A stretch of DNA of 64,000 nucleotides, taken from NCBI GenBank assembly GCA_934045905.1, contig OW203762.1:2480001-2544000 (forward strand), in the 5' to 3' direction. Shown piece by piece: positions 820-48,056 of this stretch. Each line of letters starts with the position of its first letter. The stretch's first letter is position 1. The notes below the pieces were generated by a model that did not search any database, had not been told where the DNA came from, and saw only the letters and a program-made list of their open reading frames with translations. A program made the translations under genes and the position numbers. Origin of the DNA: Leuctra nigra. Taxonomy: Eukaryota > Arthropoda > Insecta > Plecoptera > Leuctridae.

Positions 820-922
820 TGTATCGTTTGGGTCCGTCTTCTAAACAGAAGGTGAGCGTAAGATTGGCGTCGTCCTCAAAGAATTCCGTTGCAAATGCGT
901 CCCACCAGAGGTTGTCGCTTTC
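820..922 (-). CDS. Chip: Chip / LDB1 orthologue, internal coding exon c
   Basis: Chip/LDB1 is a nuclear cofactor that dimerises and bridges LIM-homeodomain and LMO proteins at enhancers. Read on the minus strand this 103-nt exon begins in phase 0 and gives 34 codons, including ESDNLWWDAFATEFF and FCLEDGPKRY, a near-invariant part of the LDB dimerisation domain. It ends with one nucleotide (A) of the next codon, as expected for the conserved T that follows KRY in the family. A canonical acceptor (TTTGCGCAG) precedes it and a strong donor (GTAAGTACC) follows. Joined to exon b it gives RTE-ESDN, matching insect Chip as I know it; vertebrate LDB1 has WTEECDN here. The exon is too short and lacks an ATG, so it is easily missed. 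The next exon must lie outside the window. Confidence 0.95.
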
Positions 923-4845: not shown

Positions 4846-5553
4846 ACCGAGTACAGGCAGCGCTCGCAGCGGCGGCCACCGACACTCCATCCCACCAACA
4901 CAACACGATGTTTTCAACAAATAGTTTCATTACGCCCGCAGAGCTCTCCGAAAATAGTTTTCTATTTATTCATTTTTACAACAATAAATTGCACTTACTA
5001 AGTAATTCTATATAACTTGCAATTATTAAGTTCTCAATTTTATGTCTTTAATGAATACGAGGATATTTTAACAATAAAAATAAATTAAAAAATATTAGAT
5101 TTTGTCGTCTAACTTTCAAAAACATCCAATACCTATGTGTAATTACGCATATTATTAGAATTAAGTTGGAATCTATCGGCAGAAAATAGTTTAAATATCG
5201 AATATTTACAAGGAAATGTACTGTGTTTTTTCATCGCGGCATATTAACCCTTTAGGACATAACTTTTTTTGGCTGATAAAAAAAATATGAAATTTTATAC
5301 ATAGTGCTTCTGATTTTTTTTCTGATTTTACAAATTTAAAAAAATAAAATTTTGTCGCTAATTTTCCAAAATTTTTAATGTACATTATAATGTACAAAAG
5401 TACCAAGCGGGTGTGTTATAAGCAATTTTAACTTGTATTGATTATATATTTTAAATATTTTAGTAAATGCATTCTTGCCTATAATGTACATATTTTGAAG
5501 GAAAGCAATTGGGTAATAAAAAATTACATACTTTCTTAAATAAAATACACAAT

Positions 5554-5559
5554 TTTATT
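5554..5559 (-). terminator. Polyadenylation signal of the piggyBac transposase gene
   Basis: AATAAA on the minus strand, about 20 nt after the transposase stop codon and still inside the element. It is a plausible element-encoded mRNA 3' end. Confidence 0.6.
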
Positions 5560-5577
5560 ATTTTGTACAGATCGTAT

Positions 5578-7422
5578 TTACAGGTGAAATTCTTTGAAGC
5601 AATTTCTTTCTCGTGTAAGGCATAAATGTACCTTACATTTCTCACACATGAAATGAGTCCTCCCCTTACAGTCCTTTTTCTTGCATCGGGTTGCCTCTTT
5701 ACCACTCGAAAACACTGGCATGTGGTCAATCGAATCCAACTGGACCGCGCGGGTAGGGCGAACCTCAGTACCTGCTCTCTTCGGTACGATGACTTCTGGA
5801 GCGGGGCTTGACGATGGTCTTCCTCGCTTCCTGTTTACCGTCTTCTTAGCCAGTATCAAGCTGGCAGCAACTTCTTGGCGGAAATGTAGCAGATCCAAAA
5901 TATTCTTTTTTGGAACTTTAAACTCTTCCGCCTCCGACCGATACTCGAGCCAGCTGTTGGTAATGGCTAGATCTATGGCGTGGAAGATCATCCGCAGTGT
6001 CCATTTCTTGGACCGAATAAATATTCTGTACAGTCCAAGGAGCATGTCCAGCAAATCTACTCCACCCATATTCTCATTGTAGAGTGAGATTACTTCTGGC
6101 CGAGGAATATTTATGTACACACCTTCTTTCTTATCCCATCTTCGGGCTTCGTTGACGTCACCAACACCAACAAAATTGGAGGCGATGTTCACTGTGCGGT
6201 TGTCTAACCACTTGACAATTACGATGTCACCATCTCGACTCACAATCTCGTCGCACGTACCACGTGGCATCTTCTTCATGTCTTTGTCGGACTTTAGAGG
6301 CGGATTGACAAACCGATTGAGGCGCACCGTGCCAGCGGCCAGAATTCCGCGTCGTTTCAGGATTTGTAAGAGATGGTACGAAGTGAAATAGTTGTCACAG
6401 TAGAGCACGTGACCCAAAGCGTCGAGTGGAACTCTCTGAGCTAAATGAAGAACTACCGACGCACCTTGGCCGTAAGCCTTCTTCAGCAGCTCGTCGATCT
6501 CCGTAGTCTTGCCCTGATATATGACAAAGTCATAAGCTTTGCCACTCTTTCCACATAACATGAAGATTTTTACACCCCATGGGTTTGGCTTACCCTTTAT
6601 ATATTGTTTTACATTGAGCTGGCCCTTAAAGGGGACCATCTGCTCATCTACGCACAGATTCTGCTCCAATTGTAACTCTAAGCATCTCTTGCGTACAACA
6701 TCATATATTGGTCGGACTTTATACATGCGGTCATTGTTTAGCTGTCTATCGTCTAAAATATTTACAAGGTGGAGCATGTTGCGGAGTTTGAAAAATCTAT
6801 TTACACTCATGTTCTCCGTGAAGAGCGGCATGTGAACCGAGTGGTCCCAATACAATCGAACTCGAGGCAATTGAAGTGATCCCATCATAATGTGAAGCCC
6901 TACTAGGGTTTTCATTTCCTCAATGTTTGTAGGCTTAAATGATATATCACCTTTTTGCAGAGCATAAATTGATGTCATTTCTGCCATCAAAGTGAAGAGA
7001 CTGTCCGGTACGTACCTCTCGAAATACTCAATTGGTAATAATGGCCCCAGCTGAGTCGGTGCTATTGAAGAAGGCATTTCTTCCCAATGCCTGGGCATTG
7101 AATCCAGCAGAACAGATCGCCGCCATTGAATATTCTTCTTCGGAGTCAAGTCCATTAATGCAAACGGTACTTCATCTGCGATGTCGACATCTTCTTCGTT
7201 GAAGTCATCATCAATGTCTTCATCGACGTCAACACCATCAACATTCTCAATCTCTTCTGGTGGAGGATTCGTCAAGGTGGCAGCTCTTGCAGAGATTATT
7301 TGGGAAGCTTCTTCATCTTCTTCATCTAGCTCATCATTCAAGTCTTCAATGTCGGAGACATCGCCGCTCATCAACATATCTAAAATGTCGTCAGCAGTTC
7401 GACATTTGTCTTTGGATTTCAT
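5578..7422 (-). CDS. piggyBac-family transposase (main exon)
   Basis: This 614-codon frame would encode the nuclear cut-and-paste transposase of its element, excising and inserting at TTAA. The N-terminus (residues 15-85) is very acidic, as in many piggyBac proteins. The catalytic core carries the expected aspartates: D259 in CVDEQM, D343 in YCDNYFTS and D456 in MGGVDLLD. The C-terminus (from about residue 579) is a Cys/His-rich domain (CKKKDC, CEKC, NCFKEFH) of the type that binds the element ends. There is no internal stop or frameshift, and the length is normal for the family. The ATG at 7422 is a workable start. However, splice signals just upstream suggest the true protein begins in a 5' exon at 7787, adding 17 residues (see next entry). 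It is inserted in a Chip intron in the same orientation as Chip. Confidence 0.95.
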   Translation of the reverse strand: MKSKDKCRTADDILDMLMSGDVSDIEDLNDELDEEDEEASQIISARAATLTNPPPEEIENVDGVDVDEDIDDDFNEEDVDIADEVPFALMDLTPKKNIQWRRSVLLDSMPRHWEEMPSSIAPTQLGPLLPIEYFERYVPDSLFTLMAEMTSIYALQKGDISFKPTNIEEMKTLVGLHIMMGSLQLPRVRLYWDHSVHMPLFTENMSVNRFFKLRNMLHLVNILDDRQLNNDRMYKVRPIYDVVRKRCLELQLEQNLCVDEQMVPFKGQLNVKQYIKGKPNPWGVKIFMLCGKSGKAYDFVIYQGKTTEIDELLKKAYGQGASVVLHLAQRVPLDALGHVLYCDNYFTSYHLLQILKRRGILAAGTVRLNRFVNPPLKSDKDMKKMPRGTCDEIVSRDGDIVIVKWLDNRTVNIASNFVGVGDVNEARRWDKKEGVYINIPRPEVISLYNENMGGVDLLDMLLGLYRIFIRSKKWTLRMIFHAIDLAITNSWLEYRSEAEEFKVPKKNILDLLHFRQEVAASLILAKKTVNRKRGRPSSSPAPEVIVPKRAGTEVRPTRAVQLDSIDHMPVFSSGKEATRCKKKDCKGRTHFMCEKCKVHLCLTRERNCFKEFHL

Positions 7423-7759
7423 TTTAAATTTGTCTCGAGAAGTACCTGCAATGAAATAAATTCATATTTTGGTGATTTACGTAAAGTTTTGACGATAAAC
7501 AGTGTTGAAATGATTTTTTTCTGCATAAAAGTGAGGTTAGGTCAACTTTGTTGAGAAACGTCAAACACACCCCCCTAGAACCAATGGCCACTGTAATGTA
7601 CACGCATTTTGGAACAAATAATCTCAGTTAAAAAAGGCGAATCACCCTAATGTAAAACGACACAAATATTCCTCATTTCATATATGATAAATCTACAGAA
7701 CGAAATATTGTGAAACTATGCATTTTTAAGTCCAAAAAAATAGTTTAGCAAGTACTTAC

Positions 7760-7787
7760 TTGCAGAAGTTGAGGCGACTGGCTGCAT
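7760..7787 (-). CDS. Probable short 5' coding exon of the piggyBac transposase
   Basis: ATG at 7787 gives MQPVASTSA plus one nucleotide, followed directly by a strong donor (GTAAGTACTT, from 7759). A pyrimidine-rich acceptor (TTTCATTGCAG) ends at 7446. Removing the 314-nt intron joins this exon in frame to STSRDKFK and then to the Met at 7422, giving 631 residues. The signals and the phase are seen in the sequence; use of the intron is inferred. Confidence 0.6.
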
Positions 7788-8270
7788 TGCTTTTTCAATA
7801 ATTTTTAGTTCTACCAATCGTCGACTGAGAGCAGCACTGTATGGTATTACATTGGAGAAAACATGACCATTTAAATGTACAAAAGAACTCAAGAATCTAT
7901 CTCTGTCAGGGCGCGTTCAGAAAATTATTGATTTTGATGTACATTTAAATGTGCACCATGACTGAAAGGGTTAAGACAGTGCTATAACTCACATTTAGGT
8001 ATAAAGTGATTAAGGTACTTGGAAATTAGTCGGCTCTTGCGTTTCTATTCACAAGGAAATGACCTACAATAAACATCCTGTCTGACTTGCCCGGCGTTGC
8101 TCGTGCTGGTAGGGAGGGGAGGCAACCCGCATTACACTAATGCGAGACGAAGATAGTTTGTACATGAGGTGGTTTTATAGCTATACAATCTTTAAATTTA
8201 ATATTCAAAGCTATACATTTGCACAGGGAACCAATAATGCAATGAACAAAACTCCACACAACAGATTAAC

Positions 8271-17368: not shown

Positions 17369-17750
17369 GAGGGCTGAGTAGTGAGCGTGGCCTGAAGAGT
17401 TTTTTAATCGATTTTTATCAATATCTTTTACCAATGTAATTGTTAACAAAATAAGGCTTTGTACAAGTATTATGAACAGTTTAATGAAAATAATTCCATA
17501 GCTTCTAATGTTTTATTATATTTACTTTGTCCCACAGACGTTTAGTGCCCGAAAATTAGTAAAATTATGGCACTAAACATCTGTTGGACAAAATAAAACT
17601 ATAAACTTATTCCAAACTAGGAAATTATTTTCATTGAACTGTTCTGAATACTCGTACAAAGTCCTATTTTGTTAACAATTACATTGGTAAAAGATATTGA
17701 TAAAAATCGATTAAAAAAATCTTCGAGGCCATGCTCACTACTCAGCCCTC
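17369..17750. mobile_element. TTAA-flanked palindromic MITE (382 bp)
   Basis: The ends GAGGGCTGAGTAGTGAGC are inverted at the right, and most of the element folds back, centred near 17555. TTAA at 17365-17368 and 17751-17754. Confidence 0.8.
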
Positions 17751-17794
17751 TTAAAACTTGAATTGTTGACAACGAGGCCTTAGTCTTGATTTAA

Positions 17795-18364
17795 AGTAGT
17801 ACCCTCATTAGTCGGTGTTAAATAGAAATGCTTCAAATTTTCCTCAAATATGCCTCAAGCAATACCATTTGCAAATACGAAAAGAAAAACATGTGTCACG
17901 GGATTAATTTAAGAGATATCTTAAATGAATTCTTGAAATTTCCCATAAGATAACATGGTGAAGCTTAAAAATTACACTTATATCTTCTGTAGAAATCGTA
18001 ATACAAACTACAAAGTAAAATTATTGATTTCATTTTAAAGGCCGATTTTTTTTCAATATTTTAGCCGCTTAAAAATGTGGGGTTACGGGATTAAATAAAG
18101 AGATAATCAAGAATAATACCCTAATTTAGCCAGTTTCTACTAGACACTGCTTAAAATCAAATCAAGTACTTAATTCGTACTGCATGAAATTAATTAAAAT
18201 AATTGTACATTCTTTATAAAATATCGTATTTCTACAAAGTAATATTATGATATTCATCAACAATGCAAAATATAGTTGTAAAATATTTATTTCATTGATT
18301 TGTAATTTAATTTGTGACTTGTGAGTCACTGACTTGAATTACGTGGACTAATGAGGGTACTACT
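17795..18364. mobile_element. TTAA-flanked MITE (570 bp) beside Chip exon b
   Basis: Perfect 19-bp terminal repeats AGTAGTACCCTCATTAGTC lie just inside TTAA at 17791-17794 and 18365-18368. The element ends 75 nt from exon b and lies in the intron just downstream of its donor. Non-coding. Confidence 0.85.
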
Positions 18365-18439
18365 TTAAACGTAACGGAATGAAAGCGTGTGTTCTCCTGC
18401 AGAACATGCATGAGTATGATATGAAGAAGTGTTACTCAC

Positions 18440-18515
18440 CTCAGTGCGCTGCTGCAGTCGCTTGTTGAGCTCGTAGATGCGGTAGTCGGGCTGGCCGAAG
18501 TACGGCGTGTGTCGT
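18440..18515 (-). CDS. Chip: Chip / LDB1 orthologue, coding exon b
   Basis: On the minus strand this 76-nt exon carries the last nucleotide of a split codon and then 25 codons beginning RHTPYFGQPDYRIYEL and ending QQRTE. It is the conserved N-terminal block of LDB proteins. The F and Q of PYFGQPDYRIY mark the insect form; vertebrate LDB1 has PYGNQTDYRIF. The donor is GAG followed by GTGAGTAAC, and the acceptor is CTGTCTGCTTCCAG. It joins exon c in phase 0 and exon a in phase 2. Its first 23 nt are also part of the 84-bp unit repeated about 68 times on its upstream side, so this acceptor is one of about 68 nearly identical ones. The exon boundary assigned here uses the acceptor nearest the unique part of the exon. 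Confidence 0.95.
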
Positions 18516-21500
18516 CTGGAAGCAGACAGAGATCTAACAAATAAGATGAACCTATCACACGTCACATCACACATTAGGCCGAAGTACAGCGTGTGTCGTC
18601 TGGAAGCAGACAGAGATCTAACAAATAAGATGAACCTATCACACGTCACATCACACATTAGGCCGAAGTACAGCGTGTGTCGTCTGGAAGCAGACAGAGA
18701 TCTAACAAATAAGATGAACCTATCACACGTCACATCACACATTAGGCCGAAGTACGGCGTGTGTCGTCTGGAAGCAGACAGAGATCTAACAAATAAGATG
18801 AACCTATCACACGTCACATCACACATTAGGCCGAAGTACGGCGTGTGTCGTCTGGAAGCAGACAGAGATCTAACAAATAAGATGAACCTATCACACGTCA
18901 CATCACACATTAGGCCGAAGTACGGCGTGTGTCGTCTGGAAGCAGACAGAGATCTAACAAATAAGATGAACCTATCACACGTCACATCACACATTAGGCC
19001 GAAGTACGGCGTGTGTCGTCTGGAAGCAGACAGAGATCTAACAAATAAGATGAACCTATCACACGTCACATCACACATTAGGCCGAAGTACGGCGTGTGT
19101 CGTCTGGAAGCAGACAGAGATCTAACAAATAAGATGAACCTATCACACGTCACATCACACATTAGGCCGAAGTACGGCGTGTGTCGTCTGGAAGCAGACA
19201 GAGATCTAACAAATAAGATGAACCTATCACACGTCACATCACACATTAGGCCGAAGTACGGCGTGTGTCGTCTGGAAGCAGACAGAGATCTAACAAATAA
19301 GATGAACCCATCACACGTCACATCACACATTAGGCCGAAGTACAGCGTGTGTCGTCTGGAAGCAGACAGAGATCTAACAAATAAGATGAACCCATCACAC
19401 GTCACATCACACATTAGGCCGAAGTACGGCGTGTGTCGTCTGGAAGCAGACAGAGATCTAACAAATAAGACGAACCTATCACACGTCACATCACACATTA
19501 GGCCGAAGTACGGCGTGTGTCGTCTGGAAGCAGACAGAGATCTAACAAATAAGATGAACCTATCACACGTCACATCACACATTAGGCCGAAGTACGGCGT
19601 GTGTCGTCTGGAAGCAGACAGAGATCTAACAAATAAGATGAACCCATCACACGTCACATCACACATTAGGCCGAAGTACGGCGTGTGTCGTCTGGAAGCA
19701 GACAGAGATCTAACAAATAAGATGAACCTATCACACGTCACATCACACATTAGGCCGAAGTACGGCGTGTGTCGTCTGGAAGCAGACAGAGATCTAACAA
19801 ATAAGATGAACCTATCACACGTCACATCACACATTAGGCCGAAGTACGGCGTGTGACGTCTGGAAGCAGACAGAGATCTAACAAATAAGATGAACCTATC
19901 ACACGTCACATCACACATTAGGCCGAAGCACGGCGTGTGTCGTCTGGAAGCAGACAGAGATCTAACAAATAAGATGAACCTATCACACGTCACATCACAC
20001 ATTAGGCCGAAGTACGGCGTGTGTCGTCTGGAAGCAGACAGAGATCTAACAAATAAGATGAACCCATCACACGTCACATCACACATTAGGCCGAAGTACG
20101 GCGTGTGTCGTCTGGAAGCAGACAGAGATCTAACAAATAAGATGAACCTATCACACGTCACATCACACATTAGGCCGAAGTACGGCGTGTGACGTCTGGA
20201 AGCAGACAGAGATCTAACAAATAAGATGAACCTATCACACGTCACATCACACATTAGGCCGAAGCACGGCGTGTGTCGTCTGGAAGCAGACAGAGATCTA
20301 ACAAATAAGATGAACCTATCACACGTCACATCACACATTAGGCCGAAGTACGGCGTGTGTCGTCTGGAAGCAGACAGAGATCTAACAAATAAGATGAACC
20401 TATCACACGTCACATCACACATTAGGCCGAAGTACGGCGTGTGTCGTCTGGAAGCAGACAGAGATCTAACAAATAAGATGAACCTATCACACGTCACATC
20501 ACACATTAGGCCGAAGTACGGCGTGTGTCGTCTGGAAGCAGACAGAGATCTAACAAATAAGATGAACCTATCACACGTCACATCACACATTAGGCCGAAG
20601 TACGGCGTGTGTCGTCTGGAAGCAGACAGAGATCTAACAAATAAGATGAACCTATCACACGTCACATCACACATTAGGCCGAAGTACGGCGTGTGTCGTC
20701 TGAAAGCAGACAGAGATCTAACAAATAAGATGAACCTATCACACGTCACATCACACATTAGGCCGAAGTACGGCGTGTGTCGTCTGGAAGCAGACAGAGT
20801 TCTAACAAATAAGATGAACCTATCACACGTCACATCACACATTAGGCCGAAGTACGGCGTGTGTCGTCTGGAAGCAGACAGAGATCTAACAAATAAGATG
20901 AACCTATCACACGTCACATCACACATTAGGCCGAAGTACGGCGTGTGTCGTCTGGAAGCAGACAGAGATCTAACAAATAAGATGAACCTATCACACGTCA
21001 CATCACACATTAGGCCGAAGTACGGCGTGTGTCGTCTGGAAGCAGACAGAGATCTAACAAATAAGATGAACCTATCACACGTCACATCACACATTAGGCC
21101 GAAGTACGGCGTGTGTCGTCTGGAAGCAGACAGAGATCTAACAAATAAGATGAACCCATCACACGTCACATCACACATTAGGCCGAAGTACGGCGTGTGT
21201 CGTCTGGAAGCAGACAGAGATCTAACAAATAAGATGAACCCATCACACGTCACATCACACATTAGGCCGAAGTACGGCGTGTGTCGTCTGGAAGCAGACA
21301 GAGTTCTAACAAATAAGATGAACCTATCACACGTCACATCACACATTAGGCCGAAGTACGGCGTGTGTCGTCTGGAAGCAGACAGAGATCTAACAAATAA
21401 GATGAACCTATCACACGTCACATCACACATTAGGCCGAAGTACGGCGTGTGTCGTCTGGAAGCAGACAGAGATCTAACAAATAAGATGAACCCATCACAC

Positions 21501-24193
21501 GTCACATCACACATTAGGCCGAAGTACGGCGTGTGTCGTCTGGAAGCAGACAGAGATCTAACAAATAAGATGAACCCATCACACGTCACATCACACATTA
21601 GGCCGAAGTACGGCGTGTGTCGTCTGGAAGCAGACAGAGATCTAACAAATAAGATGAACCTATCACACGTCACATCACACATTAGGCCGAAGTACGGCGT
21701 GTGTCGTCTGGAAGCAGACAGAGATCTAACAAATAAGATGAACCCATCACACGTCACATCACACATTAGGCCGAAGTACGGCGTGTGTCGTCTGGAAGCA
21801 GACAGAGATCTAACAAATAAGATGAAAATATTACACGTCACATCACACATTAGGCCGAAGTACGGCGTGTGTCGTCTGGAAGCAGACAGAGATCTAACAA
21901 ATAAGATGAACCTATCACACGTCACATCACACATTAGGCCGAAGTACGGCGTGTGTCGTCTGGAAGCAGACAGAGATCTAACAAATAAGATGAACCTATC
22001 ACACGTCACATCACACATTAGGCCGAAGTACGGCGTGTGTCGTCTGGAAGCAGACAGAGATCTAACAAATAAGACGAACCCATCACACGTCACATCACAC
22101 ATTAGGCCGAAGTACGGCGTGTGTCGTCTGGAAGCAGACAGAGATCTAACAAATAAGATGAACCTATCACACGTCACATCACACATTAGGCCGAAGTACG
22201 GCGTGTGTCGTCTGGAAGCAGACAGAGATCTAACAAATAAGATGAACCTATCACACGTCACATCACACATTAGGCCGAAGTACGGCGTGTGTCGTCTGGA
22301 AGCAGACAGAGATCTAACAAATAAGATCAACCTATCACACGTCACATCACACATTAGGCCGAAGTACGGCGTGTGTCGTCTGGAAGCAGACAGAGATCTA
22401 ACAAATAAGATGAACCTATCACACGTCACATCACACATTAGGCCGAAGTACGGCGTGTGTCGTCTGGAAGCAGGCAGAGATCTAACAAATAAGATGAACC
22501 TATCACACGTCACATCACACATTAGGCCGAAGTACGGCGTGTGTCGTCTGGAAGCAGACAGAGATCTAACAAATAAGATGAACCTATCACACGTCACATC
22601 ACACATTAGGCCGAAGTACGGCGTGTGTCGTCTGGAAGCAGACAGAGATCTAACAAATAAGATGAACCTATCACACGTCACATCACACATTAGGCCGAAG
22701 TACGGCGTGTGTCGTCTGGAAGCAGACAGAGATCTAACAAATAAGATGAACCTATCACACGTCACATCACACATTAGGCCGAAGTACGGCGTGTGTCGTC
22801 TGGAAGCAGACAGAGATCTAACAAATAAGATGAACCTATCACACGTCACATCACACATTAGGCCGAAGTACGGCGTGTGTCGTCTGGAAGCAGACAGAGA
22901 TCTAACAAATAAGATGAACCTATCACACGTCACATCACACATTAGGCCGAAGTACGGCGTGTGTCGTCTGGAAGCAGACAGAGATCTAACAAATAAGATG
23001 AACCGATCACACGTCACATCACACATTAGGCCGAAGTACGGCGTGTGTCGTCTGGAAGCAGACAGAGATCTAACAAATAAGATGAACCCATCACACGTCA
23101 CATCACACATTAGGCCGAAGTACGGCGTGTGTCGTCTGGAAGCAGACAGAGATCTAACAAATAAGATGAACCTATCACACGTCACATCACACATTAGGCC
23201 GAAGTACGGCGTGTGTCGTCTGGAAGCAGACAGAGATCTAACAAATTAGATGAACCTATCACACGTCACATCACACATTAGGCCGAAGTACGGCGTGTGT
23301 CGTCTGGAAGCAGACAGAGATCTAACAAATAAGATGAACCCATCACACGTCACATCACACATTAGGCCGAAGTACGGCGTGTGTCGTCTGGAAGCAGACA
23401 GAGATCTAACAAATAAGATGAACCTATCACACGTCACATCACACATTAGGCCGAAGTACGGCGTGTGTCGTCTGGAAGCAGACAGAGATCTAACAAATAA
23501 GATGAACCTATCACACGTCACATCACACATTAGGCCGAAGTACGGCGTGTGTCGTCTGGAAGCAGACAGAGATCTAACAAATAAGATGAACCTATCACAC
23601 GTCACATCACACATTAGGCCGAAGTACGGCGTGTGTCGTCTGGAAGCAGACAGAGATCTAACAAATAAGATGAACCTATCACACGTCACATCACACATTA
23701 GGCCGAAGTACGGCGTGTGTCGTCTGGAAGCAGACAGAGATCTAACAAATAAGATGAACCTATCACACGTCACATCACACATTAGGCCGAAGTACGGCGT
23801 GTGTCGTCTGGAAGCAGACAGAGATCTAACAAATAAGATGAACCTATCACACGTCACATCACACATTAGGCCGAAGTACAGCGTGTGTCGTCTGGAAGCA
23901 GACAGAGATCTAACAAATAAGATGAACCTATCACACGTCACATCACACATTAGGCCGAAGTACGGCGTGTGTCGTCTGGAAGCAGACAGAGATCTAACAA
24001 ATAAGATGAACCTATCACACGTCACATCACACATTAGGCCGAAGTACGGCGTGTGTCGTCTGGAAGCAGACAGAGATCTAACAAATAAGATGAACCTATC
24101 ACACGTCACATCACACATTAAGCCGAAGTACGGCGTGTGTCGTCTGGAAGCAGACAGAGATCTAACAAATAAGATGAACCCATCACACGTCAC
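18493..24193. repeat. 84-bp minisatellite made of the Chip intron/exon b boundary, about 68 copies
   Basis: Each unit, read on the minus strand, is 61 nt of intron ending in a polypyrimidine tract and CAG (CTGTCTGCTTCCAG), followed by the first 23 nt of exon b (ACGACACACGCCGTACTTCG and GCC). A CTAAT branch-point-like word lies at the start of the intronic part. Units differ at a few sites, for example AACCTATC or AACCCATC and TACGGCG or TACAGCG. A marked variant pair (GTGTGACGTC with GAAGCACGGC) occurs twice, four units apart (19852 and 20188), a trace of block duplication or conversion. The unit is 28 codons, so frames stay open on both strands. These long frames are not independent genes. 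Confidence 0.97.
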
Positions 24194-25741: not shown

Positions 25742-28037
25742 GTGGTGCTTGGTATGTGGTGCTTGGTATGTGGTGCTTGGTATGTGGTGCTTGGTATGTG
25801 GTGCTTGGTATGTGGTGCTTACTGCTTGGTATGTGGTGCTTGTTATGTGGTGCTTGGTATGTGCTGCTTGGTATGTGGTGCTTGGTATGTGCTGCTTGGT
25901 ATGTGGTGCTTGGTATGTGGTGCTTGGTATGTGGTGCTTGGTATGTGGTGCTTGGTATGTGGTGCTTACTGCTTGGTATGTGGTGCTTGGTATGTGGTGC
26001 TTGGTATGTGGTGCTTGGTATGTGGTGCTTGGTATGTGGTGCTTGGTATGTGGTGCTTACTGCTTGGTATGTGGTGCTTGGTATGTGCTGCTTGGTATGT
26101 GCTGCTTGGTATGTGGTGCTTGGTATGTGGTGCTTGGTATGTGGTGCTTGGTATGTGGTGCTTACTGCTTGGTATGTGGTGCTTGGTATGTGGTGCTTGG
26201 TATGTGGTGCTTGGTATGTGGTGCTTGGTATGTGGTGCTTACTGCTTGGTATGTGGTGCTTGGTATGTGGTGCTTGGTATGTGGTGCTTGGTATGTGGTG
26301 CTTGGTATGTGGTGCTTGGTATGTGGTGCTTACTGCTTGGTATGTGGTGCTTGGTATGTGGTGCTTGGTATGTGGTGCTTGGTATGTGGTGCTTACTGCT
26401 TGGTATGTGGTGCTTGGTATGTGGTGCTTGGTATGTGGTGCTTGGTATGTGGTGCTTGGTATGTGGTGCTTGGTATGTGGTGCTTACTGCTTGGTATGTG
26501 GTGCTTGGTATGTGCTGCTTGGTATGTGCTGCTTGGTATGTGGTGCTTGGTATGTGGTGCTTGGTATGTGCTGCTTGGTATGTGGTGCTTGGTATGTGGT
26601 GCTTGGTATGTGGTGCTTGGTATGTGGTGCTTGGTATGTGGTGCTTGGTATGTGGTGCTTGGTATGTGGTGCTTACTGCTTGGTATGTGGTGCTTGGTAT
26701 GTGGTGCTTGGTATGTGGTGCTTGGTATGTGGTGCTTGGTATGTGGTGCTTGGTATGTGGTGCTTGGTATGTGGTGCTTACTGCTTGGTATGTGGTGCTT
26801 GGTATGTGGTGCTTGGTATGTGGTGCTTGGTATGTGGTGCTTGGTATGTGGTGCTTGGTATGTGGTGCTTGGTATGTGGTGCTTGGTATGTGGTGCTTGG
26901 TATGTGGTGCTTACTGCTTGGTATGTGGTGCTTGGTATGTGGTGCTTGGTATGTGGTGCTTGGTATGTGGTGCTTACTGCTTGGTATGTGGTGCTTGGTA
27001 TGTGGTGCTTGGTATGTGGTGCTTGGTATGTGGTGCTTGGTATGTGGTGCTTGGTATGTGGTGCTTGGTATGTGGTGCTTGGTATGTGGTGCTTGGTATG
27101 TGGTGCTTGGTATGTGGTGCTTGGTATGTGGTGCTTGGTATGTGGTGCTTGGTATGTGGTGCTTACTGCTTGGTATGTGGTGCTTGGTATGTGGTGCTTG
27201 GTATGTGGTGCTTGGTATGTGGTGCTTGGTATGTGGTGCTTACTGCTTGGTATGTGGTGCTTGGTATGTGGTGCTTGGTATGTGGTGCTTGGTATGTGGT
27301 GCTTGGTATGTGGTGCTTGGTATGTGGTGCTTGGTATGTGGTGCTTGGTATGTGGTGCTTGGTATGTGGTGCTTGGTATGTGGTGCTTGGTATGTGGTGC
27401 TTGGTATGTGGTGCTTGGTATGTGGTGCTTACTGCTTGGTATGTGGTGCTTGGTATGTGGTGCTTGGTATGTGGTGCTTGGTATGTGGTGCTTGGTATGT
27501 GGTGCTTGGTATGTGGTGCTTGGTATGTGGTGCTTGGTATGTGGTGCTTGGTATGTGGTGCTTGGTATGTGGTGCTTGGTATGTGGTGCTTGGTATGTGG
27601 TGCTTGGTATGTGGTGCTTGGTATGTGGTGCTTGGTATGTGGTGCTTACTGCTTGGTATGTGGTGCTTGGTATGTGGTGCTTGGTATGTGGTGCTTGGTA
27701 TGTGGTGCTTGGTATGTGGTGCTTGGTATGTGGTGCTTGGTATGTGGTGCTTGGTATGTGGTGCTTGGTATGTGGTGCTTGGTATGTGGTGCTTGGTATG
27801 TGGTGCTTGGTATGTGGTGCTTGGTATGTGGTGCTTGGTATGTGGTGCTTGGTATGTGGTGCTTGGTATGTGCTGCTTGGTATGTGGTGCTTGGTATGTG
27901 GTGCTTGGTATGTGGTGCTTGGTATGTGGTGCTTGGTATGTGGTGCTTGGTATGTGGTGCTTGGTATGTGGTGCTTGGTATGTGGTGCTTGGTATGTGGT
28001 GCTTGGTATGTGGTGCTTGGTATGTGGTGCTTGGTAT
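25742..28037. repeat. 14-bp minisatellite (GCTTGGTATGTGGT), about 160 copies
   Basis: Units are almost identical, with some GTGCTG variants. At least 16 half-unit insertions of GCTTACT divide the array into blocks of about 5 to 15 units. Since 14 is not divisible by 3, the plus strand shows the same CLVCGAWYVVLGMW peptide in all three frames, which are artefacts. Strand composition is highly skewed: G and T on plus. Confidence 0.97.
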
Positions 28038-35774: not shown

Positions 35775-36098
35775 CAGAAGACCGTGGGTTCGCTGAAATG
35801 CAGATTACTTCCAGTCTCAAAGAAGAATAAAATGTGTTGATCGAACCCACACATTCATTCAATATCCTCTAAATATCGATGTGTGTACCCCCCCCCCCCC
35901 CCCCCATCCCTCACAGGAGGTATTCCTGGATGCGCTGAAACAATGGCTGCAAGTGAGAGAGCGCGAGAGCATGCGATGCTGAGTGGGAGAGAGAGAGAGA
36001 GAGAGAGAACAATCTGACCTTCTTGCCGGGCGTGCGAGGTTGCCACGTCTCTATTGTTCACACACCCACCAGGCTGAATGTTGCCTGCGCCGGCTTGC
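35775..36098. other. Simple-sequence region before the 131-bp array
   Basis: Contains a run of about 17 C (35889-35906) and a (GA)n tract (35988-36010). No gene. Confidence 0.7.
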
Positions 36099-39000
36099 TC
36101 TGTCCAGCTGTCGAGCCGCGCATAAAGCCACGCGCTGGGTGATGCTTCCACATCATCCCCTATCTCTATCGTCAACACAACGGCTGGTGTATTGCATGGC
36201 TCGGGACTCGTCTCATGTGACCGCTCAACTCTGTCCAGCTGTCGAGCCGCGCATAAAGCCACGCGCTGGGTGATGCTTCCACATCATCCCCTATCTCTAT
36301 CGTCAACACAACGGCTGGTGTATTGCATGGCTCGGAACTCGTCTCATGTGATCGCTCAACTCTGTCCAGCTGTCGAGCCGCGCATAAAGCCACGCGCTGG
36401 GTGATGCTTCCACATCATCCCCTATCTCTATCGTCAACACAACGGCTGGTGTATTGCATGGCTCGGAACTCGTCTCATGTGACCGCTCAACTCTGTCCAG
36501 CTGTCGAGCCGCGCATAAAGCCACGCGCTGGGTGATGCTTCCACATCATCCCCTATCTCTATCGTCAACACAACGGCTGGTGTATTGCATGGCTCGGGAC
36601 TCGTCTCATGTGACCGCTCAACTCTGTCCAGCTGTCGAGCCGCGCATAAAGCCACGCGCTGGGTGATGCTTCCACATCATCCCCTATCTCTATCGTCAAC
36701 ACAACGGCTGGTGTATTGCATGGCTCGGGACTCGTCTCATGTGACCGCTCAACTCTGTCCAGCTGTCGAGCCGCGCATAAAGCCACGCGCTGGGTGATGC
36801 TTCCACATCATCCCCTATCTCTATCGTCAACACAACGGCTGGTGTATTGCATGGCTCGGGACTCGTCTCATGTGACCGCTCAACTCTGTCCAGCTGTCGA
36901 GCCGCGCATAAAGCCACGCGCTGGGTGATGCTTCCACATCATCCCCTATCTCTATCGTCAACACAACGGCTGGTGTATTGCATGGCTCGGGACTCGTCTC
37001 ATGTGACCGCTCAACTCTGTCCAGCTGTCGAGCCGCGCATAAAGCCACGCGCTGGGTGATGCTTCCACATCATCCCCTATCTCTATCGTCAACACAACGG
37101 CTGGTGTATTGCATGGCTCGGGACTCGTCTCATGTGACCGCTCAACTCTGTCCAGCTGTCGAGCCGCGCATAAAGCCACGCGCTGGGTGATGCTTCCACA
37201 TCATCCCCTATCTCTATCGTCAACACAACGGCTGGTGTATTGCATGGCTCGGGACTCGTCTCATGTGACCGCTCAACTCTGTCCAGCTGTCGAGCCGCGC
37301 ATAAAGCCACGCGCTGGGTGATGCTTCCACATCATCCCCTATCTCTATCGTCAACACAACGGCTGGTGTATTGCATGGCTCGGGACTCGTCTCATGTGAC
37401 CGCTCAACTCTGTCCAGCTGTCGAGCCGCGCATAAAGCCACGCGCTGGGTGATGCTTCCACATCATCCCCTATCTCTATCGTCAACACAACGGCTGGTGT
37501 ATTGCATGGCTCGGAACTCGTCTCATGTGACCGCTCAACTCTGTCCAGCTGTCGAGCCGCGCATAAAGCCACGCGCTGGGTGATGCTTCCACATCATCCC
37601 CTATCTCTATCGTCAACACAACGGCTGGTGTATTGCATGGCTCGGGACTCGTCTCATGTGACCGCTCAACTCTGTCCAGCTGTCGAGCCGCGCATAAAGC
37701 CACGCGCTGGGTGATGCTTCCACATCATCCCCTATCTCTATCGTCAACACAACGGCTGGTGTATTGCATGGCTCGGAACTCGTCTCATGTGACCGCTCAA
37801 CTCTGTCCAGCTGTCGAGCCGCGCATAAAGCCACGCGCTGGGTGATGCTTCCACATCATCCCCTATCTCTATCGTCAACACAAAGGCTGGTGTATTGCAT
37901 GGCTCGGGACTCGTCTCATGTGACCGCTCAACTCTGTCCAGCTGTCGAGCCGCGCATAAAGCCACGCGCTGGGTGATGCTTCCACATCATCCCCTATCTC
38001 TATCGTCAACACAACGGCTGGTGTATTGCATGGCTCGGGACTCGTCTCATGTGACCGCTCAACTCTGTCCAGCTGTCGAGCCGCGCATAAAGCCACGCGC
38101 TGGGTGATGCTTCCACATCATCCCCTATCTCTATCGTCAACACAACGGCTGGTGTATTGCATGGCTCGGGACTCGTCTCATGTGACCGCTCAACTCTGTC
38201 CAGCTGTCGAGCCGCGCATAAAGCCACGCGCTGGGTGATGCTTCCACATCATCCCCTATCTCTATCGTCAACACAACGGCTGGTGTATTGCATGGCTCGG
38301 GACTCGTCTCATGTGACCGCTCAACTCTGTCCAGCTGTCGAGCCGCGCATAAAGCCACGCGCTGGGTGATGCTTCCACATCATCCCCTATCTCTATCGTC
38401 AACACAACGGCTGGTGTATTGCATGGCTCGGGACTCGTCTCATGTGACCGCTCAACTCTGTCCAGCTGTCGAGCCGCGCATAAAGCCACGCGCTGGGTGA
38501 TGCTTCCACATCATCCCCTATCTCTATCGTCAACACAACGGCTGGTGTATTGCATGGCTCGGGACTCGTCTCATGTGACCGCTCAACTCTGTCCAGCTGT
38601 CGAGCCGCGCATAAAGCCACGCGCTGGGTGATGCTTCCACATCATCCCCTATCTCTATCGTCAACACAACGGCTGGTGTATTGCATGGCTCGGGACTCGT
38701 CTCATGTGACCGCTCAACTCTGTCCAGCTGTCGAGCCGCGCATAAAGCCACGCGCTGGGTGATGCTTCCACATCATCCCCTATCTCTATCGTCAACACAA
38801 CGGCTGGTGTATTGCATGGCTCGGGACTCGTCTCATGTGACCGCTCAACTCTGTCCAGCTGTCGAGCCGCGCATAAAGCCACGCGCTGGGTGATGCTTCC
38901 ACATCATCCCCTATCTCTATCGTCAACACAACGGCTGGTGTATTGCATGGCTCGGGACTCGTCTCATGTGACCGCTCAACTCTGTCCAGCTGTCGAGCCG

Positions 39001-42000
39001 CGCATAAAGCCACGCGCTGGGTGATGCTTCCACATCATCCCCTATCTCTATCGTCAACACAACGGCTGGTGTATTGCATGGCTCGGGACTCGTCTCATGT
39101 GACCGCTCAACTCTGTCCAGCTGTCGAGCCGCGCATAAAGCCACGCGCTGGGTGATGCTTCCACATCATCCCCTATCTCTATCGTCAACACAACGGCTGG
39201 TGTATTGCATGGCTCGGGACTCGTCTCATGTGACCGCTCAACTCTGTCCAGCTGTCGAGCCGCGCATAAAGCCACGCGCTGGGTGATGCTTCCACATCAT
39301 CCCCTATCTCTATCGTCAACACAACGGCTGGTGTATTGCATGGCTCGGGACTCGTCTCATGTGACCGCTCAACTCTGTCCAGCTGTCGAGCCGCGCATAA
39401 AGCCACGCGCTGGGTGATGCTTCCACATCATCCCCTATCTCTATCGTCAACACAACGGCTGGTGTATTGCATGGCTCGGGACTCGTCTCATCACCACAGT
39501 GACCGCTCAACTCTGTCCAGCTGTCGAGCCGCGCATAAAGCCACGCGCTGGGTGATGCTTCCACATCATCCCCTATCTCTATCGTCAACACAACGGCTGG
39601 TGTATTGCATGGCTCGGGACTCGTCTCATGTGACCGCTCAACTCTGTCCAGCTGTCGAGCCGCGCATAAAGCCACGCGCTGGGTGATGCTTCCACATCAT
39701 CCCCTATCTCTATCGTCAACACAACGGCTGGTGTATTGCATGGCTCGGGACTCGTCTCATGTGACCGCTCAACTCTGTCCAGCTGTCGAGCCGCGCATAA
39801 AGCCACGCGCTGGGTGATGCTTCCACATCATCCCCTATCTCTATCGTCAACACAACGGCTGGTGTATTGCATGGCTCGGGACTCGTCTCATGTGACCGCT
39901 CAACTCTGTCCAGCTGTCGAGCCGCGCATAAAGCCACGCGCTGGGTGATGCTTCCACATCATCCCCTATCTCTATCGTCAACACAACGGCTGGTGTATTG
40001 CATGGCTCGGGACTCGTCTCATGTGACCGCTCAACTCTGTCCAGCTGTCGAGCCGCGCATAAAGCCACGCGCTGGGTGATGCTTCCACATCATCCCCTAT
40101 CTCTATCGTCAACACAACGGCTGGTGTATTGCATGGCTCGGGACTCGTCTCATGTGACCGCTCAACTCTGTCCAGCTGTCGAGCCGCGCATAAAGCCACG
40201 CGCTGGGTGATGCTTCCACATCATCCCCTATCTCTATCGTCAACACAACGGCTGGTGTATTGCATGGCTCGGGACTCGTCTCATGTGACCGCTCAACTCT
40301 GTCCAGCTGTCGAGCCGCGCATAAAGCCACGCGCTGGGTGATGCTTCCACATCATCCCCTATCTCTATCGTCAACACAACGGCTGGTGTATTGCATGGCT
40401 CGGGACTCGTCTCATGTGACCGCTCAACTCTGTCCAGCTGTCGAGCCGCGCATAAAGCCACGCGCTGGGTGATGCTTCCACATCATCCCCTATCTCTATC
40501 GTCAACACAACGGCTGGTGTATTGCATGGCTCGGGACTCGTCTCATGTGACCGCTCAACTCTGTCCAGCTGTCGAGCCGCGCATAAAGCCACGCGCTGGG
40601 TGATGCTTCCACATCATCCCCTATCTCTATCGTCAACACAACGGCTGGTGTATTGCATGGCTCGGGACTCGTCTCATGTGACCGCTCAACTCTGTCCAGC
40701 TGTCGAGCCGCGCATAAAGCCACGCGCTGGGTGATGCTTCCACATCATCCCCTATCTCTATCGTCAACACAACGGCTGGTGTATTGCATGGCTCGGAACT
40801 CGTCTCATGTGACCGCTCAACTCTGTCCAGCTGTCGAGCCGCGCATAAAGCCACGCGCTGGGTGATGCTTCCACATCATCCCCTATCTCTATCGTCAACA
40901 CAACGGCTGGTGTATTGCATGGCTCGGGACTCGTCTCATGTGACCGCTCAACTCTGTCCAGCTGTCGAGCCGCGCATAAAGCCACGCGCTGGGTGATGCT
41001 TCCACATCATCCCCTATCTCTATCGTCAACACAACGGCTGGTGTATTGCATGGCTCGGAACTCGTCTCATGTGACCGCTCAACTCTGTCCAGCTGTCGAG
41101 CCGCGCATAAAGCCACGCGCTGGGTGATGCTTCCACATCATCCCCTATCTCTATCGTCAACACAACGGCTGGTGTATTGCATGGCTCGGGACTCGTCTCA
41201 TGTGACCGCTCAACTCTGTCCAGCTGTCGAGCCGCGCATAAAGCCACGCGCTGGGTGATGCTTCCACATCATCCCCTATCTCTATCGTCAACACAACGGC
41301 TGGTGTATTGCATGGCTCGGGACTCGTCTCATGTGACCGCTCAACTCTGTCCAGCTGTCGAGCCGCGCATAAAGCCACGCGCTGGGTGATGCTTCCACAT
41401 CATCCCCTATCTCTATCGTCAACACAACGGCTGGTGTATTGCATGGCTCGGGACTCGTCTCATGTGACCGCTCAACTCTGTCCAGCTGTCGAGCCGCGCA
41501 TAAAGCCACGCGCTGGGTGATGCTTCCACATCATCCCCTATCTCTATTGTCAACACAACGGCTGGTGTATTGCATGGCTCGGGACTCGTCTCATGTGACC
41601 GCTCAACTCTGTCCAGCTGTCGAGCCGCGCATAAAGCCACGCGCTGGGTGATGCTTCCACATCATCCCCTATCTCTATCGTCAACACAACGGCTGGTGTA
41701 TTGCATGGCTCGGGACTCGTCTCATGTGACCGCTCAACTCTGTCCAGCTGTCGAGCCGCGCATAAAGCCACGCGCTGGGTGATGCTTCCACATCATCCCC
41801 TATCTCTATCGTCAACACAACGGCTGGTGTATTGCATGGCTCGGGACTCGTCTCATGTGACCGCTCAACTCTGTCCAGCTGTCGAGCCGCGCATAAAGCC
41901 ACGCGCTGGGTGATGCTTCCACATCATCCCCTATCTCTATCGTCAACACAACGGCTGGTGTATTGCATGGCTCGGAACTCGTCTCATGTGACCGCTCAAC

Positions 42001-42495
42001 TCTGTCCAGCTGTCGAGCCGCGCATAAAGCCACGCGCTGGGTGATGCTTCCACATCATCCCCTATCTCTATCGTCAACACAACGGCTGGTGTATTGCATG
42101 GCTCGGGACTCGTCTCATGTGACCGCTCAACTCTGTCCAGCTGTCGAGCCGCGCATAAAGCCACGCGCTGGGTGATGCTTCCACATCATCCCCTATCTCT
42201 ATCGTCAACACAACGGCTGGTGTATTGCATGGCTCGGGACTCGTCTCATGTGACCGCTCAACTCTGTCCAGCTGTCGAGCCGCGCATAAAGCCACGCGCT
42301 GGGTGATGCTTCCACATCATCCCCTATCTCTATCGTCAACACAACGGCTGGTGTATTGCATGGCTCGGGACTCGTCTCATGTGACCGCTCAACTCTGTCC
42401 AGCTGTCGAGCCGCGCATAAAGCCACGCGCTGGGTGATGCTTCCACATCATCCCCCTATCTCTATCGTCAACACAACGGCATAGCTCGTGACTCG
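36099..42495. repeat. 131-bp minisatellite, about 49 copies
   Basis: The unit includes CTCTGTCCAGCTGTCGAGCC and CACAACGGCTGGTGTATTGC. Units are almost identical, varying mainly at one site (CTCGGGACTC or CTCGGAACTC). One unit near 39488 carries a 7-bp change (CATCACCACAGTGACC), which merges two short frames. Since 131 is not divisible by 3, each unit yields the same 70- and 73-codon frames; these are artefacts. The high homogeneity implies recent amplification or ongoing homogenisation. Confidence 0.97.
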
Positions 42496-42988: not shown

Positions 42989-43104
42989 CTGTAGTACGGA
43001 CTGCCGAATGGCGAGCAGTAGAAGGGGTCGTTGTGCACGAGCGGCATGGCATGTGCCACGAGCATGGCGTCGCTGCTCCTGCCCCTGCCAGCGACGCCTG
43101 GCAT
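42989..43104 (-). CDS. Chip: Chip, candidate N-terminal coding exon a
   Basis: In a GC-rich stretch, the minus-strand ATG at 43104 opens 38 codons: MPGVAGRGRSSDAMLVAHAM, then PLVHNDPFYCSPFGSPYY, then AG before a donor (GTAGGACC). The two leftover nucleotides (phase 2) complete exactly the split codon with which exon b begins, giving SPYY-R-RHTPYFG. Insect Chip proteins have a variable Gly/Pro/Met-rich leader before RHTPY, which this resembles. The frame stays open upstream to a TGA at about 43210, so a longer or spliced 5' part is possible. I am confident of the phase and donor and less sure of homology, because this part of Chip is poorly conserved. Confidence 0.62.
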
Positions 43105-44460: not shown

Positions 44461-45445
44461 GACTCAAACTCACGCTTCAAACTAACTTCAACACACGAGA
44501 AGTGGAGGATCGAAACGCAACGATTACAACGAAAAATCAAACTTGAGATAAAGATAAAGCTCTATCATTTAAAAAATTGACATTATGTAACAGTATGAAA
44601 AAAATCTTGGGTATAAAAATCGTATAATATGTAATTTGCTTGTTGCATTCGATAAGGACTACCAACAAACAGAAGCCGGATTTTCGCGAATATCTCGAAA
44701 AATATAATAAGTCCAACAGTTTGGTTATCCTAAGCTCGTCATATCTTCATGGAGATTTATTGTAACTAATTCTAAGTAGTGTTCTGTGCTGTGAATGTTA
44801 CACCGTCCTTCGGAAGGGACGTTCAGCCGTTGGCCCCCTTAGTATCTTTCATAGGAGTAGGCTACATGCCGGTACCGGGTTTCAAATACTCCCTTCTCTA
44901 TATATTACATTCTCACTAGTGGAGCCTCGGCTCTGTTGAGAATATATAGACTTAATCACTCTTCTCTATAACATTCGAGACTAATATTTTATTATATTTT
45001 ACACATTTCGGGCAAATCGGTAAAGAACTTGAAGATGCTTTGACATTTGTTTTCTCGATCAAGTAACATGCTTATTGCTCTCTCTCTCTCTTGCGCACTT
45101 GCTCTCGATCTGATACAGTGACGCTGCTATCACACGGCGCGCTGTGACGTCACAGATAACCTGCTCGAGATTACATCGAGTCACCACACTCTCACGCAAA
45201 CACGGCAGCAGAGCCAGGACATACATGCATATCAATCATTATCATTGATTCTTCCCATTTGGCAAAATATTGCACAACTATTTTTAAAAAAACATTTTTC
45301 TATTAATATTTAATGAAGTATTATTTTGTGTATTAATGTTGATTTATCCCTGCCACCCCCACACGGTGATTGCTTCGGACTACTCGGCATTGTACTGTCC
45401 ACTATCAGTACATGCTGTGATAGTTCCAGTGTGTCGTGAGCGAGC
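44461..45445. other. Upstream DNA with a CRE palindrome
   Basis: A perfect 14-bp palindrome CTGTGACGTCACAG lies at 45142-45155, with a CT-rich tract at about 45079-45092. A dispersed-looking motif (CGTCCTTCGGAAGGGACGTT) lies near 44803-44825. No gene is recognised. Confidence 0.5.
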
Positions 45446-47680
45446 AGTCACGCCGCGCCGAGTTGCATTGTCCGACATTCTTCATCCTCGCGTCACTACC
45501 TGCGCCCCGACGCTTGCCACCTTATCGCGGTGTGCCAATGATCCCCTGCAGCTACGCCGGCGAGCATATGCTCATGTGTAAGTAAGGGCTACCCAGTCAC
45601 GCCGCGCCCAGTTGCATTGTCCGACATTCTTCATCCTCGCGTCACTACCTGCGCCACGACGCTTGTCACCTTATCACGGTGTGCCAATGATCCCCTGCAG
45701 CTACGCCGGCGAGCATATGCTCATGTGTAAGTAAGGGCTACCCAGTCACGCCGCGCCCAGTTGCATTGTCCGACATTCTTCATCCTCGCGTCACTACCTG
45801 CGCCACGACGCTTGTCACCTTATCACGGTGTGCCAATGATCCCCTGCAGCTACGCCGGCGAGCATATGCTCATGTGTAAGTAAGGGCTACCCAGTCACGC
45901 CGCGCCCAGTTGCATTGTCCGACATTCTTCATCCTCGCGTCACTACCTGCGCCCCGACGCTTGTCACCTTATCGCGGTGTGCCAATGATCCCCTGCAGCT
46001 ACGCCGGCGAGCATATGCTCATGTGTAAGTAAGGGCTACCCAGTCACGCCGCGCCCAGTTGCATTGTCCGACATTCTTCATCCTCGCGTCACTACCTGCG
46101 CCCCGACGCTTGTCACCTTATCGCGGTGTGCCAATGATCCCCTGCAGCTACGCCGGCGAGCATATGCTCATGTGTAAGTAAGGGCTACCCAGTCACGCCG
46201 CGCCCAGTTGCATTGTCCGACATTCTTCATCCTCGCGTCACTACCTGCGCCACGACGCTTGTCACCTTATCACGGTGTGCCAATGATCCCCTGCAGCTAC
46301 GCCAGCGAGCATATGCTCATGTGTAAGTAAGGGCTACCCAGTCACGCCGCGCCCAGTTGCATTGTCCGACATTCTTCATCCTCGCGTCACTACCTGCGCC
46401 CCGACGCTTGTCACCTTATCGCGGTGTGCCAATGATCCCCTGCAGCTACGCCGGCGAGCATATGCTCATGTGTAAGTAAGGGCTACCCAGTCACGCCGCG
46501 CCCAGTTGCATTGTCCGACATTCTTCATCCTCGCGTCACTACCTGCGCCACGACGCTTGTCACCTTATCACGGTGTGCCAATGATCCCCTGCAGCTACGC
46601 CGGCGAGCATATGCTCATGTGTAAGTAAGGGCTACCCAGTCACGCCGCGCCCAGTTGCATTGTCCGACATTCTTCATCCTCGCGTCACTACCTGCGCCCC
46701 GACGCTTGCCACCTTATCGCGGTGTGCCAATGATCCCCTGCAGCTACGCCGGCGAGCATATGCTCATGTGTAAGTAAGGGCTACCCAGTCACGCCGCGCC
46801 CAGTTGCATTGTCCGACATTCTTCATCCTCGCGTCACTACCTGCGCCACGACGCTTGTCACCTTATCACGGTGTGCCAATGATCCCCTGCAGCTACGCCG
46901 GCGAGCATATGCTCATGTGTAAGTAAGGGTTACCCAGTCACGCCGCGCCCAGTTGCATTGTCCGACATTCTTCATCCTCGCGTCACTACCTGCGCCCCGA
47001 CGCTTGTCACCTTATCGCGGTGTGCCAATGATCCCCTGCAGCTACGCCGGCGAGCATATGCTCATGTGTAAGTAAGGGTTACCCAGTCACGCCGCGCCCA
47101 GTTGCATTGTCCGACATTCTTCATCCTCGCGTCACTACCTGCGCCCCGACGCTTGTCACCTTATCACGGTGTGCCAATGATCCCCTGCAGCTACGCCGGC
47201 GAGCATATGCTCATGTGTAAGTAAGGGCTACCCAGTCACGCCGCGCCCAGTTGCATTGTCCGACATTCTTCATCCTCGCGTCACTACCTGCGCGCCGACG
47301 CTTGTCACCTTATCACGGTGTGCCAATGATCCCCTGCAGCTACGCCGGCGAGCATATGCTCATGTGTAAGTAAGGGTTACCCAGTCACGCCGCGCCCAGT
47401 TGCATTGTCCGACATTCTTCATCCTCGCGTCACTACCTGCGCCCCGACGCTTGTCACCTTATCGCGGTGTACCAATGATCCCCTGCAGCTACGCCGGCGA
47501 GCATATGCTCATGTGTAAGTAAGGGCTACCCAGTCACGCCGCGCCCAGTTGCATTGTCCGACATTCTTCATCCTCGCGTCACTACCTGCGCCCCGACGCT
47601 TGTCACCTTATCGCGGTGTACCAATGATCCCCTGCAGCTACGCCGGCGAGCATATGCTCATGTGAAAGTAAGGGCTACCC
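45446..47680. repeat. 149-bp minisatellite, 15 copies
   Basis: The unit runs from AGTCACGCCGCGCCCAGTTG to GTAAGTAAGGGCTACCC. Variation is mostly CGCCACGACG or CGCCCCGACG and TTATCACGG or TTATCGCGG, often co-varying, so two unit subtypes are interspersed. All but the last unit carry GTAAGTAAG, a donor-like word on the plus strand; the last has GAAAGTAAG. No protein is recognised. Confidence 0.96.
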
Positions 47681-48056
47681 ATGCCGGACAGGTCAGTGGT
47701 GAAGCCCAGACAAAGAGCGGCCATAATAGTATAACAAGTATAATAAGTAATATAGTAGTACAACAAGTAGTAAGTACAGCTGGTAAGTACAATAGGTATG
47801 TTTAAATACAGCGTGTAGACGAGACGTAAAGAAAGTCGAGCTGATTGTTGATGTTGTTGATTGTCTTAAGAGGAAGGACGAGCCCCTCTCAACAGCCAGT
47901 ATCAAGAATCAAGAAAGTATCCTTCGGTATGACTTTCAAAATAGCAGCGAAAAACAAGAGTTTTTATTTAATCCAGGAACTAGAGACAAGTGAATCTTAG
48001 AAAAAACAGTAAGGAAATTGTTATCAAGCAATACAAATCCAGCAGGCTTCTATTTA
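47681..48056. other. Short unique spacer between two arrays
   Basis: Contains a degenerate AAGTA/TAGTA-rich stretch (47725-47800). No gene. Confidence 0.6.

Follow-up and report, generated by a model that had tools for sequence, protein, structure and literature searches.

The 3′ splice site of exon b of Chip, a conserved developmental gene, is repeated about 68 times in tandem in Leuctra nigra (Plecoptera, Leuctridae), within a window of 64,000 nt on contig OW203762.1 (here C2; C2:2480001-2544000), in whose coordinates the features below are given and on whose minus strand Chip is read. The array is probably a very large example of what has been termed a ‘mirage’ in amphioxus, a tandem duplication of an intron/exon boundary, here grown to 68 units, with the last, exon-adjacent pair of acceptors normally used and the copies farther upstream used at most to a minor extent.

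The array and its repeat unit

Tandem Repeats Finder (TRF) reports a single 84-bp array at 18493..24193 (minus strand), with 67.9 copies, 98% matches and 0% indels, and a table of units, read on the minus strand and anchored on the acceptor, contains 68 consecutive units, each consisting of exactly 61 nt of Chip intron end followed by the first 23 nt of exon b. The copy number and unit composition proposed in the initial annotation are thereby upheld, as are its statements that a 3′ splice site of Chip has been amplified and that a single copy adjoins the complete exon. Two features of a mirage are present: minisatellite-like repeats arranged head to tail, and a unit that crosses the exon/intron boundary of a real gene, Chip being colinear in the genome.

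Copies are numbered here from exon b outwards. Copy 1 equals the consensus and is the only one that runs on into the complete exon b; its intron part occupies 18516..18576 (minus strand), with the proximal acceptor CAG|A at 18515 and two candidate branch points, CTTAT and TTCAT, identified by consensus matches (YTNAY) only, whose branch A would lie 27 and 32 nt upstream of exon b. At the opposite edge, where transcription enters the array, copy 68 (24121..24193, minus strand) is shortened at its intron end and differs from the consensus at 8 of 84 positions, six of them at the cut end. Copies 1–67 comprise 15 distinct unit types with a mean pairwise difference of 1.05%, and a block of unit types recurs 4 units apart within the array; variants occur at similar rates in the exon part (8/1541 cells) and the intron part (24/4087). 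The AG of the proximal acceptor (positions −2 and −1) is intact in 68/68 copies, as is a second AG located 18 nt upstream of it. Such uniform conservation was considered as a sign of selection and rejected as uninformative, because copies 1–67 show only 14 distinct variants.

Exon b within the Chip gene

Exon b (76 nt; 18440..18515, minus strand) encodes (R)RHTPYFGQPDYRIYELNKRLQQRTE, is entered in phase 2 and left in phase 0, and ends at the donor GAG|GTGAGT. Downstream lies exon c (ESDNLWWDAFATEFFEDDANLTLTFCLEDGPKRY; 820..922, minus strand; donor ACA|GTAAGT), and upstream an alternative exon a (42989..43104, minus strand; donor CAG|GTAGGA, phase 2), taken from its first in-frame ATG, so that its start is a guess. 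The phases are consistent throughout, with exon a ending in phase 2, exon b beginning with one base, and the b–c junction in phase 0. Translated together, exons b and c match Pfam LIM_bind (28.5 bits; cut-off 24.2) and seven distinct solved LDB1/LDB2 chain sequences.

The assembly comprises 536 Mb in 144 contigs, of which C2 measures 57 Mb. A full-length cockroach Chip protein, searched against the genome with scoring of the best candidates only, gives eight scored matches, all on the minus strand of C2 and in gene order, with exon b found once; under the same scoring, a genome-wide Pfam search gives one LIM_bind match, which is the next exon downstream; Chip looks single-copy within that scope. 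The N-terminal Chip match nominally overlaps the query range of exon b, but passes its own donor into an intron with two stops. This upstream exon (C2:2552946-2553623) ends in ...PVDRIDQ + GG followed by GTGAGT and, judged by homology, would also join exon b in phase 2; as exon a does likewise, two alternative upstream exons would face the array.

Two acceptors per unit

Each unit carries a pair of acceptors. In copy 1, the distal acceptor TTAG|A (18533..18535, minus strand) lies 18 nt upstream of the proximal one, and an exon spliced there would begin at 18533, matching the long form (‘SLPVPR’) seen in other insects. With the sequence GTTAG|ATCTCTGTCTGCTTCCAG|ACGACAC, translated R-SLSAS-RRHTPYFG, the unit has carried both acceptors along in its copies. 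Among 201 database proteins, many of those from insects read ...DQG|RHTPYFG or ...YFR|RHTPYFG at this point, or carry extra residues, ...RSLPVPRRHTPYFG; by rough patterns, 68/201 have the long form and 67/201 the short form, with the rest neither and the overlap between the two not checked. The paired acceptors thus appear to match the two N-terminal forms, short and long, found in other insects. On a rough matrix, which underlies all splice-site scores given here, the proximal acceptor is strong (5.2) and the distal one weak (0.1). Neither this doubling nor the reading frame described next had been noticed in the initial annotation.

Reading frame through the array

The 84-nt unit equals 28 codons and is open in the Chip frame, which stays open over 1626 codons on the downstream side of 23245 and over 344 codons on the upstream side, as far as 24280. 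The only in-frame stop of the array is a TAA in copy 57 (23246..23248, minus strand), which would be included by splicing to any acceptor of copies 58–68. When exon a, each version of exon b and exon c are joined, 114/136 acceptors give an open product, the remainder being closed by this TAA.

Openness of this kind is not far from chance expectation. For random pieces of local intron set in front of this exon start, the probability of an open frame is 0.27, rising to 0.44 when the final 20 nt are retained; requiring the period to be a multiple of three reduces these values threefold, to 0.09–0.15. One frame is open on the antisense strand of the array as well. Signs of coding selection were accordingly rejected as evidence, openness being near chance, one copy carrying a stop and amino-acid-changing variants being common. 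At E ≤ 0.001 the array translation matches 82 proteins, in a search that scored the 7992 candidates with the most words in common; array-specific words, or two occurrences of RHTPYFG, were found in none of the 201 database proteins. A protein of the species itself may have been missed, as the two Chip searches covered the best 120 of 718 and the best 120 of 692 proteins. Preservation of the frame may nevertheless be a reason why the array was tolerated, without constituting proof of translation.

Origin of the array and choice among its acceptors

The array would have arisen by tandem duplication of a segment spanning the boundary between the Chip intron and exon b, and would have grown to 68 units by slippage or unequal exchange in a minisatellite-rich genome; the recurring block of unit types and the divergent edge copy are consistent with tandem turnover. 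Exon definition would then pair the last two acceptors with the strong donor of exon b over 76–94 nt, from either upstream exon, a preference that we infer from established knowledge of splicing. The donor of exon b ranks 1 of the 2507 GTs between exon a and exon c, and the four scored Chip donors reach 2.9 to 7.5, whereas the nine GTs in copy 2 score from 0.2 down to −6.9, so that the units themselves are unlikely to act readily as exons. For acceptors farther up, no good donor would lie at the distance of a typical exon. Exons beginning at the acceptors of copies 2–4 would measure 160, 244 and 328 nt, sizes not unusual for exons, which makes minor in-frame isoforms plausible; it is possible that the next few copies yield such isoforms, with 28, 56 or more added residues, which would be tolerated since the unit length and frame keep the protein readable. 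Frequent splicing to the copies transcribed earliest should, by contrast, carry a cost, as the acceptors of copies 58–68 lead to the stop. Concealment of acceptors by RNA structure was considered separately and rejected, a fold of 221 nt (exon b with copy 1 and the greater part of copy 2) being no better than those of shuffled sequences (z 0.82; 164/200 shuffles at least as good).

Several observations weigh against preferential use of the exon-adjacent pair. Within the a–b intron, 68 sites reach the score of the proximal acceptor of copy 1, namely 66/68 array copies and two sites outside the array, so that nothing in the acceptors themselves prefers copy 1; copy 68 is transcribed about 5.6 kb ahead of copy 1; and a comparable array, that of human ABCA7, does leak, retention of one unit having been observed there (PMC5954066).

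These observations bear on the alternative that several copies are used substantially, producing a series of Chip proteins with n × 28 extra residues (consensus RHTPYFGLMCDVTCDRFILFVRSLSASR) before LIM_bind, the mix being set by array length. The predominance of open a+b+c products, a unit that is a multiple of three and open in the Chip frame, the apparent choice between in-frame acceptors at this position in other insects, as judged from proteins, and the single-unit retention in ABCA7 all favour such a series; the chance estimate for openness, the open antisense frame, variants that include amino-acid changes and a stop, an exon-part variant rate resembling that of the intron part, and the absence of array-specific words from the database proteins speak against it, and we regard it as rather unlikely. 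Its stronger form, in which variable copy use yields Chip with 0, 28, 56 or more added N-terminal residues and repeat length heritably tunes the isoforms of a master developmental cofactor, is doubtful. Copies 58–68, the earliest to be transcribed and followed by the TAA of copy 57, could instead be imagined to capture much of the splicing, yielding stop-containing mRNA that is degraded and so lowering Chip output. Such a trap would require an exon of 4.9–5.7 kb without a good donor nearby, and should be selected against, Chip being dosage sensitive in Drosophila; it is very unlikely.

Use of the copies as mini-exons separated by new introns has a precedent in a potato RdRp gene, where a duplication across an acceptor gave rise to an intron (PMC4974935), and the length of about 60 nt that introns within the units would have might suffice; the potato intron, however, used an exon-derived GTAAG, which the 23-nt exon piece lacks, and the weak GTs of copy 2 argue likewise, making this highly improbable. 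An assembly artefact, with the living insect carrying a much shorter array or none, has some grounds in the amphioxus literature, which reports one such array aberrantly assembled in a genome draft, but would be surprising in a 57-Mb contig of a 144-contig assembly, given the 15 unit types, the scatter of their variants, a duplicated block and many further arrays in the genome, although the copy number may still be off. The doubt raised in the initial annotation, that exon b might be a non-functional duplicate with the real exon elsewhere, is contradicted at the level of the assembly by the eight cockroach Chip matches, which follow gene order and include exon b a single time among the best candidates scored, and by the intact frame, phase and donor of exon b; nothing was found in its favour, and its probability is negligible. 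A large mirage read mainly from its last acceptor pair remains the preferred interpretation.

Genome context and neighbouring elements

Arrays of at least 300 bp with a period of at least 10 occupy 34.6% of the bases of the window, and 14.6% of 27 other stretches totalling 220 kb (L005–L031), being present in 14/27 of these; three stretches adjoining the window (L002–L004), excluded from that count, hold 0, 16.5 and 14.7%. Across contigs C1–C4, arrays occur in 13/17 stretches of 10 kb at 0.5–3.0 Mb and in 1/10 stretches of 5 kb at 16–48 Mb; the greater density at 0.5–3.0 Mb is only suggestive, the sample being small and the stretch lengths unequal.

Exon b is not alone in having an array near a splice site. 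A 34-bp array of at least 44 copies (L036 1661-3156; C2:2467126 to beyond 2468621) ends 28 nt short of Chip exon f, so that just the final part of the intron is free of it, and two nearly identical kinase genes on C2 carry 83-bp arrays just downstream of a kinase exon (L040 1-954; L041 1228-2301), that of L041 beginning about 35 nt into the intron. The two kinase exons were those with the longest open frames among 132 matches; their arrays do not cross the splice site, as judged by eye for L041 and from translation for L040, and no second array crossing a splice site was found among the stretches and the two kinase exons examined. It is plausible that the array of exon b represents the extreme of a series of arrays lying near splice sites.

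Exon a has further large minisatellites to either side, at 25742-28037 (14 bp × 172), 36098-42480 (131 bp × 49), 45445-47681 (149 bp × 15) and 48056-51002 (35 bp × 84). Near exon b, a short element with perfect 24-nt inverted ends (17790-18369) lies about 70 nt downstream of the donor, and a long hairpin occupies 17394-17724, with 165-nt arms that are 84% complementary and 1 nt apart. The b–c intron also contains a piggyBac-like element (5244-7974) with an open 627-aa frame matching DDE_Tnp_1_7 (E 1.4e-70) and the ends TTAACCCTTT and AAAGGGTTAA.

As an unusually large acceptor mirage, the array places 68 near-identical acceptors before one exon, and so offers a natural experiment in which equivalent sites compete for the spliceosome and the results can be told apart in steps of 84 nt. 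A genome so rich in minisatellites may hold more mirages, and the case bears on the tolerance of exon starts to repeats and on intron gain.

Comparison with known systems

Two other kinds of array were considered and set aside. In Dscam-like arrays of alternative exons, each copy is a full exon with its own donor, whereas the Chip copies hold only the first 23 nt of an exon. Arrays of the ABCA7 or IFI6 type amplify donors; the Chip unit holds an acceptor, and the donor of exon b lies outside the array.

The ABCA7 report (PMC5954066) describes a variable number tandem repeat (VNTR) in human intron 18 whose first two bases form the donor of exon 18. It has about 12 to 427 units, and splicing at the donor one unit on, which retains one unit, was observed. 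Like the Chip array, it holds in its unit the canonical splice site of the adjoining exon, but on the donor side, in a 25-bp unit beginning with the intron GT, and with retention out of frame. The IFI6 (6-16) minisatellite is likewise reported to have units that act as alternative splice sites, in this case donors (Turri et al. 1995). The duplication over the acceptor boundary of potato RdRp (PMC4974935) carries a branch site, polypyrimidine tract and AG, as the Chip unit appears to do; it is a single duplication that became a spliced intron by means of a cryptic GTAAG, whereas no donor of comparable score is seen among the nine GTs of Chip copy 2.

The initial annotation knew of no described case of an acceptor amplified in this way, a statement that the amphioxus mirages, and the ABCA7 array on the donor side, overturn. 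Mirages (PMC3087553, PMC3902484) are tandem-duplicated intron/exon boundaries, acceptor side included, found in Adh3, the globins BflGb6 and BflGb9, TnC and PGBD5, with PGBD5, TnC and Adh given as further cases in the latter source; the term is credited by these citing papers to Canestro et al. 2002. As in Chip, they are minisatellite-like repeats over an intron/exon boundary, and many of their units keep splice signals. Mirages are further characterised by homogenised interior copies with divergent edges, by undisturbed regular splicing and by length instability between haplotypes; of the two edges of the Chip array, copy 68 diverges and copy 1 equals the consensus. No boundary array in an insect, nor one with this many acceptors, was found in the open-licence literature searched. 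The closest counterpart is BflGb6, whose units likewise join the 3′ end of an intron to the 5′ part of the next exon, but number 6 and 3 in two haplotypes, at 150–160 bp and 81–100% alike, against 68 × 84 bp in Chip. The Chip array is therefore of a known but obscure kind, and is set apart from the amphioxus mirages by its size, its insect host, the two acceptors in each unit, and a unit that is open in the frame of the gene.

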